Of a stretch of 40,919 nt of DNA, positions 1 through 9,087 are shown piece after piece. Source of the DNA: Deltaproteobacteria bacterium. Lineage in GTDB: Bacteria; Desulfobacterota; Desulfobaccia; Desulfobaccales; 0-14-0-80-60-11. Where the stretch lies: NCBI GenBank assembly GCA_030655955.1, contig JAUSOZ010000131.1:1-40919 (forward strand), in the 5' to 3' direction. How positions within the stretch are numbered: position 1 is the stretch's first letter; each line of letters opens with the position of its first letter. The notes beneath the pieces are model-generated. The model was not told the origin of the DNA. It worked only from the letters and a program-made list of their open reading frames with translations, and ran no database searches. Position numbers and translations under genes: made by a program.

Positions 1-219
1 CGTTCAAGGTCAGATTTTGAGGATTAATCCTGGGGGCCAGCCCCCAGACCCCCGGGGTTTATCGCTTTTAAGGCCAGGGAAGAGGTCAAAGAAGGAGAGG
101 CGGAAACCAAGTGCTCCCGCCTCTTCCCCGGCCGTCTCCGATGCGCTCGGGTCGCTCCCCAGCGTTGCCCTATCCTCCCCAGAGACAACTGCATAATATG
201 ACGATAGCCCTTAATAATC

Positions 220-272
220 AACCGGACATTTTATGTGCTATGAAAACCGGACATCTGTTTGTGCTATTGACA
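220..272. repeat. Imperfect direct repeat, possible insertion-sequence end
   Basis: Two copies of a 22-23 nt unit lie 3 nt apart at 220-241 and 245-267. Each starts AACCGGACAT, has a 4-5 nt variable centre and ends TGTGCTAT. Just after them comes TGACA. Read on the minus strand the block would begin TGTCA and carry two internal repeats, a layout known from the multi-repeat ends of IS21-family elements. No transposase is visible in the window, so the mobile-element reading is only an inference. Confidence 0.4.
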
Positions 273-273
273 C

Positions 274-301
274 CTTGAACTTTGAACCTTGAACTTTGAA
301 C
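274..301. repeat. Four tandem heptamers (C/T)TTGAAC
   Basis: The 7-nt unit occurs four times head to tail: CTTGAAC, TTTGAAC, CTTGAAC, TTTGAAC. The first base alternates strictly C, T, C, T, so it can also be read as two copies of a 14-mer. It sits between the possible IS end and the 3' end of the cyclase gene. A role is not evident; a simple-sequence tract of this kind could vary in copy number between strains. Confidence 0.7.
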
Positions 302-369: not shown

Positions 370-2658
370 TCACGGGTTTGCGCGGCGGACCAGGTACAGG
401 GGAATGATGCCGGCATGTTTCGGCAGCGGGATCCGTCCCACGTACTCGCAGGTGAAGCCTTGCACCCGCTGGGTAGAGGCCAGGGCCGCAAATTGCTGGC
501 TGGCGTACACCTGTCCCGGCGGGGTGATGGGTTCAATGCGGGCCGCCCGCACAATGTGGGAGCCGGCGTATTCCATTTCCTTGAAGACCGGCTCTTTGTA
601 ACAGTAAACCGGCCCGGCGTGCAGGGAGATGCGCAGATTGAGTTCTTTGGGCAACCCCTTCGCCTGCCAATCCGTGTCGCACACCAGATCGCGCAGCTGG
701 AGGGCGAAATTGCCGGCGTCGTGCACCGAGGCGAAGACGCTATACAGGGCATCACCCCAGGTATTTTTCATTAAGGGCTTATCCGGGGACTCGGCCACCA
801 ACTTGTTGATGGCCCCCATGAAATGTTCGACGAAGTTCGGGACCTGTTCCTCCATAATCTTACTGGACCCTACCACATCGGCGAACAGCATGGCGCGGAT
901 TTCCTCGGTAAAGCCCCGGGGCACGGGCGCGGCGGTGTCAGCCCGGGGGACGGATGCTGCGGCCGCCGCCGCCTCTGGCCCACGAGGCGGAGTCTCGGCC
1001 AGCATTCGGGTAATATCGATAATCTCTGGCTCCAGACCGTGGGAACGCCAGTGTTGGATCAGGCTGCTGGTCCCCCCGGGTCCATCCCCAGCCCCGCCAT
1101 CCCATACGACCAGGGGGATTAATTCGGTGTCCAGCATCTGTGCCCGCAATATTGCCAGGCCATCCAGCAGCAGATTACCATATTCATAGACCATGGCATT
1201 TCCGGAAGCCCGATTCTCGCTGGCTACGATAACCTGGGTGGCCTGCTCGAGCACCGCCTCGAACCGGGGACCCCAATCGGTCCCGGGAACGAGGGTGACG
1301 CTGGTCTTGATAAACTCCTCCTTGATGAACGGCAGGATGATGTTGATCTCGCCTCCCCGTTGGAGCATGGCTTCGAGGAATAAAATGTCGGAGCCGCAGG
1401 CGGCTGAAGCTGCCCCAATCCGGGCATCGAGTCGCTTCAGGGTGGCGGCGATCTGCTCATATACCTGTGGGGCCAGATAGTCGGGGAAACGAGGCTTGAG
1501 CCGGCCGGGCTGATCGATCATATGGCCGGCAAAGACCACCACCCGGGGAATTGGAAAGCAGGCTTCGATCCGTTGCTGCTGATCAGGGTCCAGGTCCATC
1601 ACGGTGAACAACAGCCGGGCGTTGCGCCGGGTAGAGGCCAGATCGCCATATCTGCCGTTGGCTTTCCGGCCGGCCTCAGTATACCACTTGATGGCATCGC
1701 TTAACTCACCCCGGATCAAGGCGGCCTCGCCCAAGGTGGCCTGAAGCCAATACAACTCTTCCGGATCTGAAGTTCCCTGGGCCAATTCCTGGAGGCATTG
1801 CTCCGTGACTCGATTTGCCAGGACCAGGGCCTGCTGTTTATCGTTTAAGTACCTGGCAATGGTAGCGGCGTTGATGCCGGACCAATAACCTTTGGTCCTC
1901 TCATAGGCCGAAGCGTAGATTTCGTAGGCCTGCCCCCACTGTCTGGACGTCTCCGCCGGGTCGGAGGCCCGGTTGGCAAAATCTTTATGGGCCCGAGCCA
2001 GGAGGCCCAGGGTCTCCTCATCGCGGTTATTTTCGTCAACCAGCTTTTGGAGGAGTTCCAGGGCCTGTTGTACCGCCCCGGAGCGCAGCAGCGCCAAGGC
2101 CATCAATTGTCGCAACCGGGTCTCCGTGGGCCAGAGTTTGAGTCCCTCAGCCACGATGTCATAGGCCAGCAGAGGCTCCCCCAGCCGCATGACATGCTGG
2201 GCCAAGTCCTGATAGATTTTGGTCGGGAATGGCCCGGAGGTCAACTTTAAGGTTTGCCACAGTTCAAGGGATTTGGCCAGGTCAAGGTGGGGCAGATCAG
2301 CCCCAAGCTGCTCAACTGCGGCCGCATCCCCTTGGGCCCATAAGGCGCAGGCCGGGCCGGCTAGCGCCGGACTTGAGGGCGATTCGACCCGGTATCCCAG
2401 GGCCAGCATGGCCTGGATGACTCCCAGGGAGATTTTCCGGTCGTATTCCTTTTCCGATTCCGGCAGCTCGTCGTAGGAGACTATACAGGGGTGCTCCTTC
2501 AGCAAGTCATTCCGGGACTGCCCATGGCGCCAGCCGTCAGCCAGACGTTGTTTCAACCAATTGTCATGGGTAATTTCGGACAATTGCTCCACCAGATTGT
2601 TAAGATCCGCCGGAATCTGCACCCTGGTGAGGTCCAGCGATTTGGGCTCGTATGGCAT
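370..2658 (-). CDS. RyR / TPR-like / Rossmann-like / class III nucleotidyl cyclase-domain protein
   Basis: The product is a 762-residue soluble signalling protein without signal peptide or membrane segments. Residues 26-91 match the prokaryotic RyR domain (W-x-R-L-A-D-G-W-x-x-G, later the pattern Y-D-x-L-P-E-S-E-K-x-Y-D-R). Residues 105-365 are helical repeats of the TRAF-binding/TPR type. Residues 372-550 form an alpha/beta domain starting VVVFAGHMID and holding SAACGSDILFLEA, resembling SLOG/TIR-like nucleotide-sensing Rossmann folds. Residues 584-760 are a class III cyclase homology domain with metal aspartates D594 (FADVVGS) and D636 (WGDAL). The usual Asn of the N-x-A-A-R motif is Val703 while Arg707 remains, so cyclase activity is uncertain. 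The gene stands alone. A sigma-70 promoter and a palindrome lie about 130 nt upstream. The domain order suggests a sensor with cyclase or regulatory output, but the ligand is unknown. Confidence 0.8.
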   Translation of the reverse strand: MPYEPKSLDLTRVQIPADLNNLVEQLSEITHDNWLKQRLADGWRHGQSRNDLLKEHPCIVSYDELPESEKEYDRKISLGVIQAMLALGYRVESPSSPALAGPACALWAQGDAAAVEQLGADLPHLDLAKSLELWQTLKLTSGPFPTKIYQDLAQHVMRLGEPLLAYDIVAEGLKLWPTETRLRQLMALALLRSGAVQQALELLQKLVDENNRDEETLGLLARAHKDFANRASDPAETSRQWGQAYEIYASAYERTKGYWSGINAATIARYLNDKQQALVLANRVTEQCLQELAQGTSDPEELYWLQATLGEAALIRGELSDAIKWYTEAGRKANGRYGDLASTRRNARLLFTVMDLDPDQQQRIEACFPIPRVVVFAGHMIDQPGRLKPRFPDYLAPQVYEQIAATLKRLDARIGAASAACGSDILFLEAMLQRGGEINIILPFIKEEFIKTSVTLVPGTDWGPRFEAVLEQATQVIVASENRASGNAMVYEYGNLLLDGLAILRAQMLDTELIPLVVWDGGAGDGPGGTSSLIQHWRSHGLEPEIIDITRMLAETPPRGPEAAAAAASVPRADTAAPVPRGFTEEIRAMLFADVVGSSKIMEEQVPNFVEHFMGAINKLVAESPDKPLMKNTWGDALYSVFASVHDAGNFALQLRDLVCDTDWQAKGLPKELNLRISLHAGPVYCYKEPVFKEMEYAGSHIVRAARIEPITPPGQVYASQQFAALASTQRVQGFTCEYVGRIPLPKHAGIIPLYLVRRANP

Positions 2659-2772
2659 GACTTTGCTCCAGTGGCGAAGGTCTAAGTCTCTTGCCGGGCA
2701 AGGGATAATCCGCCGCCGCCATCGCCCTCAAAGTGAAATGGGCCGGAACGAATAATCCCCCGGTATGCTGCC

Positions 2773-3144: not shown

Positions 3145-3732
3145 ATGAAAAATAATATCGTTAGAATGGGGCCTGGCCGGGGCCGCTCCCCGTGGATCTG
3201 GGTGCTGGGGGTCATGGTGATTGTGGGGGTGGGGGCCTGGGGCTTCTGGGGCCACCGGCCGCCGCTCCCGCCCCCCAAGCCTGTGGCTACGACCCAGCCG
3301 CCGCGGATGGAGGGCCTCTCCCTCACCGAGATTCATGAAGGCGATAAAACCTGGGTCCTCGAGGCCAAGAAAGCGGATTTTCACCCGGAGGAGAATACCA
3401 TCAGCATCAGCGGCGTCCGAGTGGAATTCTTCGGCCCCGGAGAAGACATCCGGGTAAAGGCCGATGCGGGGCTGTTTAACACCAAGACCCGGGTCTTGAC
3501 CCTAAAGGGGCAGGTGGAGATGAAGCGCGGCGACCTGGTGGTTACAACCAGCGAGGCCACCTTTTTGCCGGCTGAACGGGTCTTGCTCGCCCCCGAGCAT
3601 GTGGTGATCACGGAACCGGGCCTCAAGGTTGAGGGCCGGGGGTTGCGGGTGGAACTGGCCGCCAAGAAGCTGGTTATGGCCCAACACCATCTCACCGAAT
3701 TTCTGGTTAAGGATTGGAGGGGCAAAAAGTGA
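3145..3732 (+). CDS. lptC: LPS export protein LptC
   Basis: LptC is the bitopic inner-membrane subunit of the lipopolysaccharide transport bridge. It takes LPS from LptB2FG and hands it to LptA. The 195-residue product has one N-terminal transmembrane segment (about residues 15-35, a run rich in W, V, G and I) and then a periplasmic beta-jellyroll region with the alternating pattern of the OstA/LptC family, for example GVRVEFF and LKGQVEMKRGDLVV. The length is normal for the family. An alternative ATG lies 21 nt downstream; neither start has a strong ribosome-binding site. The gene overlaps lptA by 4 nt (GTGA), and lptB follows, which is the classical order and supports the call. Confidence 0.85.
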   Translation: MKNNIVRMGPGRGRSPWIWVLGVMVIVGVGAWGFWGHRPPLPPPKPVATTQPPRMEGLSLTEIHEGDKTWVLEAKKADFHPEENTISISGVRVEFFGPGEDIRVKADAGLFNTKTRVLTLKGQVEMKRGDLVVTTSEATFLPAERVLLAPEHVVITEPGLKVEGRGLRVELAAKKLVMAQHHLTEFLVKDWRGKK

Positions 3733-4352
3733 GGCGCCACCGGTTATTAGCCCTCGCCGGGCTTCTGGTCATGTTCTGGGCTGTTTCCTTCCCGGCGGAC
3801 GGGGCCGCCCCCAAGAAACCGGCAGGGGAAGTCCCCCTGCGCATCACCGCCGCCCGCCTGGAAGCGGATCAGAAAGAAGGGACCATCATTTTCAGCGGTC
3901 AGGTGAAGGCCATATACGGCGACTCCACCCTGTACGCCGACCAGTTGCGGGTCTACTTCAAGGCCAAACCGGAGCCGCCCAAGGGAGCCGCCAAGCCGGC
4001 CCAGGAAAAAGCGAACCAGTCGCCCCTGGGGGACTTGGGGGCCGAGAAGATTGACCGCATCGTGGCCAAAGGCAACGTACGCATGGTCCAGGAGGACCGG
4101 GTGGCCACCGGGGATGAGGCCATCTACTACAAGGACCGGGATGAGGTAGTGCTTACGGGCAACCCCCAGTTGTGGCGGGCTGAAAATACCCTGAAAGGGG
4201 AACGGATCATCTTCAATCTTGCAACCAACAAGGTGCTGGTGGAAAGTTCGCCCCAGCGCCGGGTGGAAGCCCTGCTCTATTCCCAGGGGGGTTCGGAAGG
4301 CAAGGCCTCCAAGCCTCTTAGCCCCAAAACCCGCAAGAGCCGCCAGCCTTAG
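3729..4352 (+). CDS. lptA: LPS export periplasmic protein LptA
   Basis: LptA forms the periplasmic oligomer along which LPS moves from LptC to LptD at the outer membrane. I place the start at GTG 3729, overlapping the lptC stop, because GGAGGGG lies 6 nt upstream; the longer TTG start at 3714 would fall across that site. The 207-residue product starts with a basic patch and a hydrophobic signal peptide (LLALAGLLVMFWAVS, cut probably near ADGA). An OstA-like beta domain follows, with ADQKEGTIIFSGQVKAIYGD and IVAKGNVRMVQEDRVATGDE. A proline/lysine-rich insertion (about residues 85-105) and a basic C-terminal tail are not typical of the E. coli protein. Confidence 0.87.
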   Translation: MRRHRLLALAGLLVMFWAVSFPADGAAPKKPAGEVPLRITAARLEADQKEGTIIFSGQVKAIYGDSTLYADQLRVYFKAKPEPPKGAAKPAQEKANQSPLGDLGAEKIDRIVAKGNVRMVQEDRVATGDEAIYYKDRDEVVLTGNPQLWRAENTLKGERIIFNLATNKVLVESSPQRRVEALLYSQGGSEGKASKPLSPKTRKSRQP

Positions 4353-4355
4353 GCT

Positions 4356-5078
4356 ATGCATCGGCTCACCCTGCAATCTTTGTCCAAGAGCTACGACGGC
4401 CACAAAGTGGTGGACGACGTCTCCATGGAAGTCAAAAGCGGCGAGGTGGTGGGCCTCCTGGGCCCCAATGGGGCCGGCAAGACCAGCACCTTTTTTATGG
4501 TGCTAGGGCTGCTGCAACCCGACGGCGGCAAGATCTCCCTGGACGGCGAGGACATCTCGCTCCTGCCGATTTATCGCCGGGCCCGGTTGGGTTTGCAATA
4601 TCTCCCCCAGGAGCCGTCGGTGTTCCGGAAGCTCACGGTGGCCGAGAATATCATGGCGATCCTGGAGACCCTGGAGCCGGACCTTAAGGTGCGCCAAAGC
4701 CGCATGGAGAAATTGCTGGCCGATCTGCGGATTTCTCACCTGTCCAACCAGAAGGCCTCGGCCCTTTCCGGGGGTGAGCGGCGCCGGGTAGAGATCAGCC
4801 GGGCCCTGGTCACCGCCCCCCACTTTATCATCCTGGATGAGCCTTTTGCCGGCATCGACCCCATGGCGGTGACTGATATCCAAAACATTATCCGTGACTT
4901 GAGAAACCGGAATCTGGGCGTGCTCATCTCGGACCACAACGTCCGGGAAGCCCTGGGAGTCTGCGACCGGGCTTATATTCTCAACGAGGGGGTTATCCTG
5001 GAAGAGGGCACCCCGGATAAACTGGTCCATAGTGAGTTGGCCAAAAGAATTTACTTGGGCGAGACCTTTAAGTTATAA
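4356..5078 (+). CDS. lptB: LPS export ABC transporter ATPase LptB
   Basis: LptB is the cytoplasmic ATPase that powers LPS extraction by LptFG. The 240-residue protein has Walker A GPNGAGKT at residues 36-43, the Q-loop near Q85 (YLPQEPSVF), the signature LSGGE at 138-142, Walker B IILDE at 158-162 and the switch His194 (SDHNV). The motif DEPFAGIDP is typical of LptB. It starts 3 nt after the lptA stop. lptF and lptG are not in this window. Confidence 0.96.
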   Translation: MHRLTLQSLSKSYDGHKVVDDVSMEVKSGEVVGLLGPNGAGKTSTFFMVLGLLQPDGGKISLDGEDISLLPIYRRARLGLQYLPQEPSVFRKLTVAENIMAILETLEPDLKVRQSRMEKLLADLRISHLSNQKASALSGGERRRVEISRALVTAPHFIILDEPFAGIDPMAVTDIQNIIRDLRNRNLGVLISDHNVREALGVCDRAYILNEGVILEEGTPDKLVHSELAKRIYLGETFKL

Positions 5079-5148
5079 TAGTTTTCAATCCCCCCACCGG
5101 ACGGGGCTCTTATTCTGGTTCTGGCGAATTTTTTCATAAGGCGGGCCG

Positions 5149-6636
5149 ATGGCCTTAGAGATCAGACAAACCTTAAAGCTTACCCAATCTCTCATCATGA
5201 CGCAGAAATTGCAGCAAGCCATCAAGCTGCTGCAACTTTCCCGTATGGAACTGGTGGGGGAGATTACCCAGGCCCTGGAAACTAACCCGGTCCTGGAAGA
5301 TGACCAGTTTGAAGAAGAAAAGGCGCCGGCAGAGGACGAACTCAGTCTGGGAAATCATGCCGATGGCAATGAATCGTCACCGGAGGAGGTCAAGACCGAC
5401 GGCGAGGCCAAATCCGCCGCCGAAGAATGGGATTGGGACAGCTTTCTGAAGGATCGGCTCATGCCGCCCCCCATGGGCGAATACGAAGAACGGGAAGCCC
5501 TGCCCTTCGAGTCCCTGAATGCCCAAGAGATCACCCTGAAATCCCACCTCATATGGCAGCTCCGGATGGCCGAACTCGATCAAGAGGGCGATAATATCGG
5601 GGTGATGATCATCGGCAACCTGGACAAAGACGGCTATTTCCGGTCCACGGTGGAAGAAATCGCCGATGAGATGCGGGTCGACCCGCCCCGGGTGGAGCAG
5701 GTCATGGAGGTTATCCAGGGCTTCGATCCTCCGGGGGTGGCCGCCCGGAACCTGAAAGAATGCCTGCAAATACAGCTCAAGATTCTGGGGGTCCAGGATC
5801 CCCTGGTGCTCGATATTATCGACCGCCACCTGAACAATCTGGGGAACAAAAATTACCAGGCCATCGCCCGGGACCTGAAGGTATCCATCGGGAAGGTGGT
5901 GGAGGCCGGCGACCTCATCAGTAACCTGGAGCCCAAGCCTGGCCGAGGTTTCGACTCCGAAGAGCCGGACTATATCAACCCCGACGTCCACGTGGAAAAG
6001 GTGGGAAACGACTACGTGATCCGTCTGAACGACGACGGCCTGCCCAAGTTGCGGGTTAACTCCTTTTATCTGGAGGCCATGCGAGGTCCGGATAAACTCC
6101 CGGACTCGGTCAAGAGTTATATTCAGAAACATTTGGATAACGCCCTGTGGTTTATTCGCAGCATCCACCAGCGGCAAAAGACCCTGTATCGCGTCACCGA
6201 AAGTATCGTCCGTTTCCAGCGGGATTTTCTGGACCACGGCCTGTCGAGTCTGAAACCTTTGACCCTGCGCCAGGTGGCGGAAGACGTCCAGATGCACGAA
6301 TCCACCATCAGCCGGGTCACCACCAACAAGTATGTGTACACCCCCCAGGGAGTCTTTAATCTCAAGTTTTTCTTTAACAGCGCCATTAACATGTCTTTGG
6401 GGGAGCAGATCGCCTCGGAGAGCGTCAAGGAAAAGATCCGCCAAATGGTGGCGGGCGAGAATCCCGAGAACCCCTTGAGCGATCAGGAGATTGCCGATAA
6501 TCTGCGGCGCCAGGATGTACTTATTGCCCGGCGCACCGTAGCCAAATATCGAGGCATGCTGGGGGTGCTACCCTCCAGTAAACGCAAGAAACCCGGGTAC
6601 CTGCGGAAGAGCCAGACAGAAAATCACGCCCTGTGA
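5149..6636 (+). CDS. rpoN: RNA polymerase sigma-54 factor
   Basis: RpoN directs RNA polymerase to -24/-12 promoters that need AAA+ activators. The 495-residue protein has the glutamine/leucine-rich region I (residues 1-50, with LKLTQSLIMTQKLQQAIKLL), an acidic region II (about 60-105), the core-binding domain, the helix-turn-helix near 365-395 (LRQVAEDVQMHESTISRVT) and the RpoN box ARRTVAKYR near 460-468. The RpoN box is intact. It follows lptB by 70 nt and precedes hpf, ptsN and rapZ, the arrangement found in many proteobacteria. The 5' gap holds a CCCC/GGGG dyad without a T tract, so read-through from lptB is likely. Confidence 0.97.
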   Translation: MALEIRQTLKLTQSLIMTQKLQQAIKLLQLSRMELVGEITQALETNPVLEDDQFEEEKAPAEDELSLGNHADGNESSPEEVKTDGEAKSAAEEWDWDSFLKDRLMPPPMGEYEEREALPFESLNAQEITLKSHLIWQLRMAELDQEGDNIGVMIIGNLDKDGYFRSTVEEIADEMRVDPPRVEQVMEVIQGFDPPGVAARNLKECLQIQLKILGVQDPLVLDIIDRHLNNLGNKNYQAIARDLKVSIGKVVEAGDLISNLEPKPGRGFDSEEPDYINPDVHVEKVGNDYVIRLNDDGLPKLRVNSFYLEAMRGPDKLPDSVKSYIQKHLDNALWFIRSIHQRQKTLYRVTESIVRFQRDFLDHGLSSLKPLTLRQVAEDVQMHESTISRVTTNKYVYTPQGVFNLKFFFNSAINMSLGEQIASESVKEKIRQMVAGENPENPLSDQEIADNLRRQDVLIARRTVAKYRGMLGVLPSSKRKKPGYLRKSQTENHAL

Positions 6637-6678
6637 GCCCCCGGCTTTTCTGCGAGTCCAACCCTTTGGGAGGCAGTA

Positions 6679-7206
6679 ATGCAAATATCCGTAACTTTCC
6701 GACAGATTGAACCTTCGGAGGCCTTAAAGAATTATGTGACCGACCGGTTAACGAAGTTTAAACGGTATCTGGACGGACCGGTGGAAGCGCACGTGGTTTT
6801 GGGGCTGGAAAAATTTCGCCATCTGGCGGATGTGACGATCGACAGCAATGGTCACATCATCAAAGGCAGAGAAGAGAATACCGACATGTACGCCGCCATC
6901 GATCTGGTGATGGACAAGATCGATATCCAGTTGAAAAAGTTTCGGGACAAGATGAGGAGCGCCAAAGGCGACCGCAGCCGGTCGGCTGCCCCGGCGCCGG
7001 CCGAGGCGGAGGAAGCCCGGGATTTCCCGGCCTTACGGCGCCAACGGGTGGAGGTACCGGCCCTGCAACTGGACGATGCGGTGGAACTCTTGCAAAGCGG
7101 CAAGGACACCCTGCTGGTCTTTACCGATGTGGCCAGCGGCAACTTGAACATCTTATACCGACGCCCGGATGGCAACTTTGTCCTGGTCGAACCCGATTTA
7201 GGATAG
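6679..7206 (+). CDS. hpf: Ribosome hibernation promoting factor, long form
   Basis: HPF binds the small ribosomal subunit in slow growth. The long form dimerises ribosomes to 100S particles through its C-terminal domain. The 175-residue product has the N-terminal S30AE fold (residues 1-100; ISVTFRQIEPSEALKNYVTD) and the C-terminal dimerisation domain (about 120-175; VEVPALQLDDAVELL, then SGNLNILYRRPDGN). Both domains are complete, so this is the long and not the short type. GGGAGG stands 5 nt before the ATG. Its place directly after rpoN is conserved. Confidence 0.93.
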   Translation: MQISVTFRQIEPSEALKNYVTDRLTKFKRYLDGPVEAHVVLGLEKFRHLADVTIDSNGHIIKGREENTDMYAAIDLVMDKIDIQLKKFRDKMRSAKGDRSRSAAPAPAEAEEARDFPALRRQRVEVPALQLDDAVELLQSGKDTLLVFTDVASGNLNILYRRPDGNFVLVEPDLG

Positions 7207-7223
7207 AGGTATCAGGGAACCGT

Positions 7224-7685
7224 ATGAAAATCATCGACCTCCTGGCCCCAAATTGTATTTTACCCAATTTGCAGGCCACTAACAAAAAGGGAGTGCTGGA
7301 GGAACTGGCCCAAACCATGACCCCAGGCCCGGATGGGCTCTCACTCCAAACCGTGATGGAGGTGCTGCTGGACCGGGAGCGCCTCGGGAGCACCGGTATC
7401 GGCGATAACATCGCCATCCCCCATGGCAAGCTGGCCGAACTTTCCCGGCTCATGCTGTGCTTCGGCCGCAGTCTTAAGGGGGTTGACTTCGACTCCATGG
7501 ATGGCAAGCCGTCGCAGATATTTTTTATGCTGCTCGCCCCGGTCAACTCCGCCGGTCTCCATCTCAAGGCCCTGGCCAAGATTTCCCGGATGCTCATGAG
7601 CCAGCCTTTCCGGGATAACCTCATGAAGGCCGATGGGGCCGAGGAAATTTACCGTTTGATTGCCGAACGAGACGCGGAATTTTGA
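7224..7685 (+). CDS. ptsN: Nitrogen-PTS EIIA component PtsN
   Basis: PtsN (EIIA-Ntr) is the end phosphoryl acceptor of the regulatory nitrogen PTS and acts on partners such as potassium transporters and kinases. The 153-residue product has the family fold and the phospho-acceptor His67 in GDNIAIPHGK, followed by the typical FFMLLAP strand. It lies 17 nt after hpf and before rapZ. HPr and enzyme I are not in the window, so the phosphate source must be encoded elsewhere. Confidence 0.93.
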   Translation: MKIIDLLAPNCILPNLQATNKKGVLEELAQTMTPGPDGLSLQTVMEVLLDRERLGSTGIGDNIAIPHGKLAELSRLMLCFGRSLKGVDFDSMDGKPSQIFFMLLAPVNSAGLHLKALAKISRMLMSQPFRDNLMKADGAEEIYRLIAERDAEF

Positions 7686-7762
7686 GGTTGGGTCCGCATA
7701 TTCTCGTCGAGCTCTCAATGGCAACCATCCAGGTCTCTTTGGCTCGCTAAATTCGGGGAAAA

Positions 7763-8683
7763 ATGACGCCGGAACCAGGTCCGCACCCGGAATCGAACCA
7801 CCGCCACCTGTCCCCTTTTTCCATTCTCATCCTCACCGGGCTTTCCGGTTCGGGGAAGAGTACGGTGTTGCGCGCCCTGGAAGATATCGGCTATTTTTGC
7901 GTCGACAACCTGCCCCTGGGCCTGCTCCTGCCGTTTTTGGACATGCAGTCCGCCGCGGTTTCCAGCGGACGCCGCATTGCCCTGGTTATGGACGTCCGCA
8001 CCGAAGGCTTTCTGCAGAATTTCAGCCAGGTGTTTCGCCGCCTCGAGGAACTGGGCCACCATCTCCACATCATCTTTCTGGAGGCGGATGACGCCACCTT
8101 AATGCGGCGTTTCAGCCAGACCCGCCGCCAGCACCCCCTGGCGGACCATGACACCATCGTCCAGGCCCTGCGCCAGGAGCGCAACTCCCTGGCGGATTTG
8201 CGGCAACTGGCCCACCGGATCATCGACAGCTCCCACTACAACCCGCATCAACTGCGGGAGTTGATAAAGGATGAATACTCCGAGCTGGCGCCCCGCCAGC
8301 GGATGTGGCTCCATCTCATCTCTTTTGCCTACAAGAAGGGCATTCCCCCGGAAGCCGACATGGTGCTGGATGTGCGGTTCTTGCCCAACCCTTACTTTAT
8401 AGAGGAATTGCAGCCCCTTACCGGAGAAAACCCCGGGGTCCGGAAGTATGTCCTGGATCGTTCTGAAACCCAAGCTTTTCTCGACCACCTGTTCACGTTT
8501 GTGGACTTTTTACTGCCCCACTACCAGAAAGAAGGCAAGACGCATCTGACGATAGCCATCGGTTGCACCGGTGGGCAACACCGTTCAGTGGTCATAGCCA
8601 ACGTCCTGGGGCAACATCTGAGCCGGGAAAATTATTCGTTTACCCTTAGCCATCGCGATATGCCGCGGTCCGCAGGAGAATAG
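7763..8683 (+). CDS. rapZ: RNase adapter / nucleotide-binding protein RapZ
   Basis: RapZ is a P-loop protein; in enterobacteria it guides RNase E to the GlmZ sRNA and senses glucosamine-6-phosphate. The 306-residue product has Walker A GLSGSGKST at residues 26-34, the family motif DVRFLPNPYF and the C-terminal motif IGCTGGQHRSV. The length is about 20 residues above the usual, from an N-terminal extension (MTPEPGPHPESNHRH), so the true start could be slightly downstream. Only GGGGA stands before the ATG. Position between ptsN and a PTS EIIA gene is conserved. Whether it acts on a GlmZ-like RNA here is unknown. Confidence 0.92.
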   Translation: MTPEPGPHPESNHRHLSPFSILILTGLSGSGKSTVLRALEDIGYFCVDNLPLGLLLPFLDMQSAAVSSGRRIALVMDVRTEGFLQNFSQVFRRLEELGHHLHIIFLEADDATLMRRFSQTRRQHPLADHDTIVQALRQERNSLADLRQLAHRIIDSSHYNPHQLRELIKDEYSELAPRQRMWLHLISFAYKKGIPPEADMVLDVRFLPNPYFIEELQPLTGENPGVRKYVLDRSETQAFLDHLFTFVDFLLPHYQKEGKTHLTIAIGCTGGQHRSVVIANVLGQHLSRENYSFTLSHRDMPRSAGE

Positions 8684-8685
8684 TT

Positions 8686-9087
8686 ATGATCGGAATCTTA
8701 ATCGTCACTCACCAGGAACTGGCCGAGGCCTTGTTGAGCGTCTGGGACCTGATCCTGGGGCACCAGGAGGGCATCGCCGCCGTGTCCCTGGACCCCAGCG
8801 CGCCCCCTGAGGTTTCCCGTCAGCAGATCCAGCGCGGCCTGTCCCAGGTGAATGGCGGCAACGGGGTGATCATCCTCACCGATATGCTGGGAGGGACCCC
8901 ATCCAATCTCACCCTTTCCTTCCTGCAAGAAGGCAAGGTGGAAGTCGTCACCGGCGTCAACCTGCCCATGCTCATGAAACTGACCCACATCCGGGATCAA
9001 CAAGACCTGCGAGAGGCAGCCCTGGCCTTGAAGCAATCCGGCCAGAAAGGGATTGCCGTGGCCAGTGAGGTTCTTAACAAGAAATGA
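8686..9087 (+). CDS. PTS mannose-family EIIA domain protein
   Basis: The 133-residue product is a stand-alone EIIA of the mannose family. It starts MIGILIVTHQELAEALL with the phospho-acceptor His9, and has the family motif DMLGGTPSNLTLSF. It starts 2 nt after rapZ and overlaps rimI by 4 nt. In Deltaproteobacteria such EIIA genes commonly stand beside rapZ and serve in signalling rather than sugar uptake. No EIIB, EIIC or EIID gene is near it here, which fits a regulatory role. This last point is inferred. Confidence 0.88.
   Translation: MIGILIVTHQELAEALLSVWDLILGHQEGIAAVSLDPSAPPEVSRQQIQRGLSQVNGGNGVIILTDMLGGTPSNLTLSFLQEGKVEVVTGVNLPMLMKLTHIRDQQDLREAALALKQSGQKGIAVASEVLNKK

Follow-up and report, generated by a model that had tools for sequence, protein, structure and literature searches.

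A RyR-domain class III cyclase gene and its TIR partner in a Desulfobaccales genome: a candidate two-gene signalling module

The cyclase gene and its apparently displaced TIR partner

The window analysed here is a stretch of 40,919 nucleotides, contig C100 (JAUSOZ010000131.1) of the 3.5-Mb, 323-contig assembly GCA_030655955.1 of a Desulfobaccales bacterium. Its subject is a single gene, in which a RyR domain, helical repeats, an unnamed middle domain and a class III cyclase domain are joined in one chain, and which is followed in related genomes by a gene for a TIR-domain protein. The gene and its domains lie as follows.

370..2658, minus strand: RyR, TPR-S, middle domain and class III cyclase protein, 762 aa; intact open reading frame (ORF) with an ATG start and no internal stops
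2666..2669, minus strand: ribosome-binding site GGAG, 7 bases 5' of the ATG, read directly in the sequence
2383..2652, minus strand: RyR domain, residues 3-92 (PF02026, E 1.4e-25, 89.8 bits against a gathering score of 27.4)
1564..2208, minus strand: TPR-S helical repeat region, residues 151-365 (PF20308 at 169-267, E 1.4e-18, 67.8 bits against a gathering score of 27.6)
1003..1563, minus strand: unnamed alpha/beta domain, residues 366-552 (FAGHMID ... AACGSDILFLEA ... VWDG..GDGPGGT), which recurs alone elsewhere
373..906, minus strand: class III cyclase domain, residues 585-762 (PF00211, Guanylate_cyc, at 589-746, E 8.7e-7)

An earlier note on this DNA had named a RyR domain (at residues 26-91), helical repeats and a class III cyclase, all three of which are borne out by these profile matches. 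Full-length orthologues are rare and scattered: a sample of about 395 genomes from across the phylum holds three (the own genome counted), and one further genome, G003, has another. The orthologous proteins share 86% (G003), 61% (G171, from a different family within the same phylum) and 55% (G009) identity with the window protein. Against these three orthologues the ratio of nonsynonymous to synonymous substitution rates (dN/dS) is 0.16-0.26 overall and reaches its minimum, 0.11-0.17, in the cyclase domain, while two linkers are loose. The low ratio, lowest in the cyclase, shows that the gene is real and is kept under purifying selection, the cyclase part included. A scan of genome contigs with the window protein returned the near orthologue as its sole match, and no PADLOC model, cyclase models included, matches the protein.

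In all three relatives, a TIR gene lies on the same strand directly 3' of the cyclase gene, at a distance of 112 bp in G003, 46 bp in G009 and 29-56 bp in G171. A remnant of a further copy on contig C186 of G003 preserves the same order, with the C-terminus of the cyclase followed by the start of the TIR gene. The outer neighbours of the pair are unlike one another: lptC and lptA in G003, unrelated genes in G009 and G171. The TIR partner, of about 490-530 residues, begins with a TIR domain, has a single transmembrane helix and ends in a series of tetratricopeptide repeats (TPRs). It matches PF08937 around the cut-off and also scores as ThsB_TIR (the PADLOC match to ThsB is weak), and it keeps the Glu of the IKRE motif. 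These parts are all that was found in the protein, and a cyclic-nucleotide-binding (CNB) domain is not among them. With one transmembrane helix and a positive N-terminal side, the TPR part is probably periplasmic. In G009 and G171 the TIR gene is itself followed by a third gene, for a lipoprotein with two SH3_3 domains, 56% identical between the two genomes (L026:9220-9852 and L041:192-827), which may be part of the module and may link it to the envelope.

The earlier note had described the gene as standing alone next to a possible end of an insertion sequence (IS). The IS end was confirmed, with a short repeat beside it:

1..272, no strand assigned: IS end, with an imperfect inverted repeat of about 47 bp shared with C173:6360-6405
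273..288, no strand assigned: 16-bp repeat CCTTGAACTTTGAACC directly beside the IS end; a further copy adjoins the other IS end, at C173 6344-6359

The solitary position is true of the contig only. The TIR orthologue of the own genome, 73% identical to the TIR protein of G003, lies on contig C173, 515 bases from an IS junction near the contig end, and this end and the start of the window carry opposite ends of one IS. About ten copies of the IS (20 ends) are present in the genome and the 16-base repeat occurs 11 times; the presence of some ten copies was not by itself sufficient to link C100 with C173. The link is drawn instead from the 16-bp target repeat shared by both junctions together with the gene order in the relatives. 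The simplest reading of this arrangement is that the IS inserted between the cyclase and TIR genes and broke the assembly there. The idea of an isolated gene was thus rejected, since the TIR partner lies 3' in three relatives and appears to have been displaced by the IS in the own genome. Past the TIR gene, C173 next carries a gene (L030:2329-3915) for a 528-aa protein with a weak match to the DisA-like nucleotide-binding (DAC) domain.

The RyR domain and its putative ligand pocket

The RyR domain was reportedly proposed as a nucleotide-ligand sensor by Burroughs et al. in 2015 (NAR). The domain in the window matches RyR structures, including 3nrt and RyR1-3, and RyR similarity is also seen in the homologues of the window protein. 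More recently, phage RyR-domain proteins were reported in a 2026 preprint to bind 2'- and 3'-cyclic ADP-ribose (2'cADPR and 3'cADPR), which are products of TIR enzymes (PMC13232231). One of these proteins, RyDEP, also cleaves both isomers, and its ligand contacts are H75, W78, H100 and D117 (PMC13232231). Alignment and spacing place the counterparts of these contacts in the window as follows.

2566..2568, minus strand: His31, equivalent to RyDEP His75 (contact to the terminal ribose, catalytic in RyDEP)
2557..2559, minus strand: Trp34, equivalent to RyDEP Trp78 (adenine stacking)
2491..2493, minus strand: His56, equivalent to RyDEP His100 (phosphates)
2440..2442, minus strand: Asp73, equivalent to RyDEP Asp117 (ribose; general acid in RyDEP)

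The four residues and their spacing (+3, +25, +42) are identical to those of RyDEP, and all host RyR domains aligned keep them. The phage proteins are close relatives as well: stand-alone RyR proteins of about 94 aa from phage contigs (L076-L087) are 43-50% identical to the window domain, and 220 INPHARED phage records match RyR. Nearly all phage RyR proteins aligned carry the four ligand residues, the protein of L083 being without counterparts of W34 and H56. A Pectobacterium phage RyR protein bound both cADPR isomers (PMC13232231); the Pectobacterium phage protein aligned here, perhaps the same one, keeps the four positions. The phage stand-alone proteins close to the host domain are likely RyDEP-type sponges or glycosidases.

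That RyDEP is an enzyme raises an alternative for the window protein, namely that its RyR domain is a built-in off switch, which hydrolyses or soaks up the TIR signal as RyDEP does, with the cyclase under some other input. The catalytic pair of RyDEP is indeed kept, as His31 and Asp73. However, the other phage homologues tested did not cleave the ligands despite high conservation (PMC13232231), and an off switch leaves the fusion to a conserved cyclase unexplained. We regard this alternative as distinctly improbable.

The association of RyR with TIR genes extends beyond the gene pair. In a set of 17 genomes, 8 of the 17 RyR genes have a TIR_2 gene no more than 5 kb away, against 0.14 expected; when the four genomes of the window's orthologue group are set aside, a TIR gene is near 5 of 13 RyR genes, against 0.10 expected. 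These ratios are inflated by the clustering of defence genes and by the way in which two of the loci were found, yet the RyR–TIR association is strong despite this inflation. The other TIR-adjacent RyR genes are varied, comprising fusions to AAA or TrkA-N domains and stand-alone forms, and lie beside TIR-STAND or TIR-TPR genes.

The cyclase and middle domains

The family profile of the cyclase domain matches solved class III cyclases, with E-values down to 2.5e-12. The residues relevant to catalysis and specificity are listed below.

877..879, minus strand: Asp594, first metal-binding Asp, invariant
751..753, minus strand: Asp636, second metal-binding Asp, invariant
763..765, minus strand: Asn632, at the position of the usually adenine-specifying Lys of adenylyl cyclases (family alignment NTWGD)
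550..552, minus strand: Val703, at the position of the transition-state Asn; Val or Ser in 7 of 9 aligned relatives
538..540, minus strand: Arg707, transition-state Arg; shared by 8 of 9 relatives, the G171 protein having Thr

The two metal Asp residues, Arg707 and the Val at the Asn position had been read correctly in the earlier note, which took the altered motif as a special feature and left open a pseudo-enzyme. At this position, however, the nine relatives carry V, V, S, S, N, V, N, S and V, so that replacement of the Asn is usual in the family. The four orthologues, aligned among themselves, have V, V, S and S there; all four share D594 and D636, and three have R707. Active class III cyclases which lack the Asn are also on record, e.g., Rv1900c with His in its place (PMC4886424). 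Val703 as the sole mark of a pseudo-enzyme was therefore rejected, given the V/S usage of the relatives, the active Asn-less cyclases and the low dN/dS.

The broader alternative, i.e., that the cyclase domain has lost catalysis and serves as a scaffold or a nucleotide sensor, with the TIR protein as the sole active enzyme of the pair, draws on the Val/Ser at the Asn position, on the Asn at the adenine-specifying Lys position and on the inactive cyclase domains reported from conflict systems (PMC7159879). The invariant pair of metal Asp residues, the mostly conserved Arg and a dN/dS that is the lowest of all domains speak against a dead enzyme, as does the activity of Rv1900c, and we consider this alternative to have little probability. 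An active cyclase is thus retained in the preferred reading. No product can be read off its specificity positions, F592/N632/W634, which match neither adenylyl cyclases (Lys at 632) nor any of the residue sets reported from pyrimidine cyclases, namely Y/D/R, F/K/F and F/R/Q (PMC11224242). A class III cyclase with Val for Asn also occurs on a Rhizobium beringeri plasmid (L040:5980-7053), where it is fused to a NUDIX domain. The NUDIX family often acts on ADP-ribose derivatives.

Between the RyR and cyclase domains, the TPR-S helices are predicted by AlphaFold2 with a confidence score (pLDDT) of about 70-90 over residues ~150-310. The middle domain had been called Rossmann-like in the earlier note on account of its motif SAACGSDILFLEA. 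The motif is present and belongs to a domain that recurs, standing alone, in Rhizobium, Sinorhizobium, Paraburkholderia, Rhodococcus and the genome G366; the Rossmann-like fold is putative. No library names the domain (searches of Pfam and the PDB gave no match), and its AlphaFold2 model had a pLDDT of 43, from a two-sequence alignment that was too shallow. Its G[GA]ACGxD motif lines up with SGLARGID, the SLOG motif of DprA, at an hhalign probability of only 8.8%, which is weak; the E-value of 0.004 applies to a single comparison and was the best among the controls. The hhalign comparison with LDcluster4 was likewise weak, and a search for STALD (the SLOG of ThsA) across the phylum, an uninformative search, gave no matches. 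A SLOG-like nature of the middle domain is accordingly an unproven lead rather than a result.

The stand-alone copies have settings of their own. On a Rhizobium leguminosarum plasmid (L089), the genes for a CAP12/Pycsar-type TIR protein, a stand-alone middle domain, TPR-S and SLATT adjoin, and in Sinorhizobium a stand-alone middle domain lies near a TIR gene. In G366, the domain (L043:320-1108) lies 5' of two others, a caspase-like gene and a large ORF of CHAT/lipase-like type. As to the window itself, the gene is adjoined at 3145-9087 by an ordinary run of lptC, lptA, lptB, rpoN, hpf, ptsN, rapZ and the PTS EIIA gene.

A possible relay between TIR and cyclase

The gene pair, the domains, the residues and the insertion sequence are all evident in the DNA, and from them we infer the signalling steps that follow. 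With a probability of roughly one half, the window gene is the sensor-cyclase half of a two-gene module in which a TIR-made signal of the cADPR type passes through RyR to the cyclase. The membrane-anchored TIR protein would sense a trigger via its TPR part, probably at the envelope, and would convert NAD+ to an isomer of cyclic ADP-ribose. This signal would be bound at the N-terminus by RyR, possibly together with the middle domain, through H31, W34, H56 and D73, and the TPR-S part would pass the binding on to the C-terminal cyclase, which would make a cyclic mononucleotide for an effector encoded elsewhere. The earlier note's suggestion of a signal-gated cyclase in a nucleotide-signalling conflict setting gains support from the ligand residues of RyR, the TIR partner and a relative on a Priestia plasmid.

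This relative (L038, NZ_CP128553.1) bears on the order of events. In its locus a PycTM Pycsar effector gene is followed by two unknown genes, then by a cyclase-TPR-S gene that has the Asn and by a separate RyR gene of 94 aa; genes for a TIR protein and an MBL hydrolase are close by. Here the same three parts have come together independently, in the company of an established cyclic-nucleotide effector, and the locus is a candidate RyR-linked Pycsar locus. It is consistent with the reverse, Pycsar-like order, in which the RyR/TPR-S/middle-domain protein senses the trigger and the cyclase product drives a TIR-TPR effector that destroys NAD+; pairs of a cyclase with a TIR protein are, moreover, a known Pycsar layout (PMC11224242). 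The TIR protein lacks a cyclic-nucleotide-binding domain, however, and a RyR domain ahead of the cyclase points to an input of the cADPR type, which makes the reverse order rather improbable. In favour of the relay, a G252 relative without RyR has no adjoining TIR gene. On a Tolypothrix plasmid, a TIR-WD40 gene comes 92 bases after a shortened cyclase that shows 62% identity over 97 residues.

The module, if it works from TIR to cyclase, is likely to serve antiviral or stress defence. The same biochemistry might instead serve envelope-stress or cell-wall signalling with no antiviral role, for which the probably periplasmic TPR part, the SH3 lipoprotein gene and the lack of a defence island around the loci would argue. 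Against this stand the patchy and rare distribution, mobile relatives on plasmids, and RyR being a common phage domain with demonstrated counter-defence roles; a purely envelope-related function is considered unlikely.

Several observations also weigh against the TIR-to-cyclase relay itself. Next to the pair, no gene for a receptor or effector of cyclic nucleotides was found, and the independent loci of the pair are few (four genomes plus remnants). The own genome also holds a TIR-transmembrane-TPR paralogue (L031, G000:C44:4675-5982), 42% identical to the TIR-TPR protein of G003, and this paralogue has no cyclase gene beside it. The binding of cADPR by the window RyR is presumed from its residues and its phage relatives, and part of the RyR–TIR proximity owes to the clustering of defence genes noted above. 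In addition, the AlphaFold2 models of the RyR, middle and cyclase parts, built from shallow alignments, were unusable; for the whole protein, the pLDDT was 43 with confidence only in the TPR part (again from a two-sequence alignment that was too shallow).

Comparison with known systems places the pair between them. The phage RyR proteins, RyDEP included, share the PF02026 family, the four ligand residues and their spacing with the window protein (PMC13232231); they are stand-alone counter-defence sponges or glycosidases, whereas the window RyR is part of a host cyclase fusion beside a TIR gene. As in Thoeris, a TIR enzyme, here one that matches ThsB_TIR, adjoins a protein whose domains include one from a family that binds cADPR isomers, but the partner is a cyclase and the pair is without a ThsA-type effector (Sir2-SLOG, macro-transmembrane or other). 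As in Pycsar (PycC with PycTIR or PycTM), a class III cyclase has a TIR partner, and the Priestia relative lies beside PycTM. The pair differs from Pycsar in having no CNB or PycTM effector, PycTM being present only at that distant relative, in its F592/N632/W634 set, which is unlike the described PycC sets, and in the added RyR and TPR-S parts. TPR-S (PF20308) sensor proteins likewise join repeats to signalling domains; the window protein adds an N-terminal RyR and a C-terminal cyclase in one chain. The module would work like parts of Thoeris and Pycsar and is a member of neither, because the pair is without an effector of the ThsA, CNB or PycTM kind and the protein has no matching PADLOC model.

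More tentatively, at somewhat lower confidence than the module itself, a host RyR domain would be the receptor for TIR-made cADPR isomers, and the fused cyclase would convert their signal to a second messenger, giving an immune relay with two messengers. In the literature library searched, no paper links RyR, a cyclase and TIR in one module; such a relay, not described before, would be a plausible cellular counterpart of the phage RyR sponges and glycosidases. The function of bacterial RyR domains was not established in the phage study (PMC13232231), and a RyR domain with an intact pocket beside a TIR gene makes the question of a host cADPR receptor testable with two genes. If the relay is true, two signalling chemistries known separately, from Thoeris and from Pycsar, would act one after the other in a single pathway. 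The module also touches on a long-standing issue, the relation between cADPR and the ryanodine receptors of animals.
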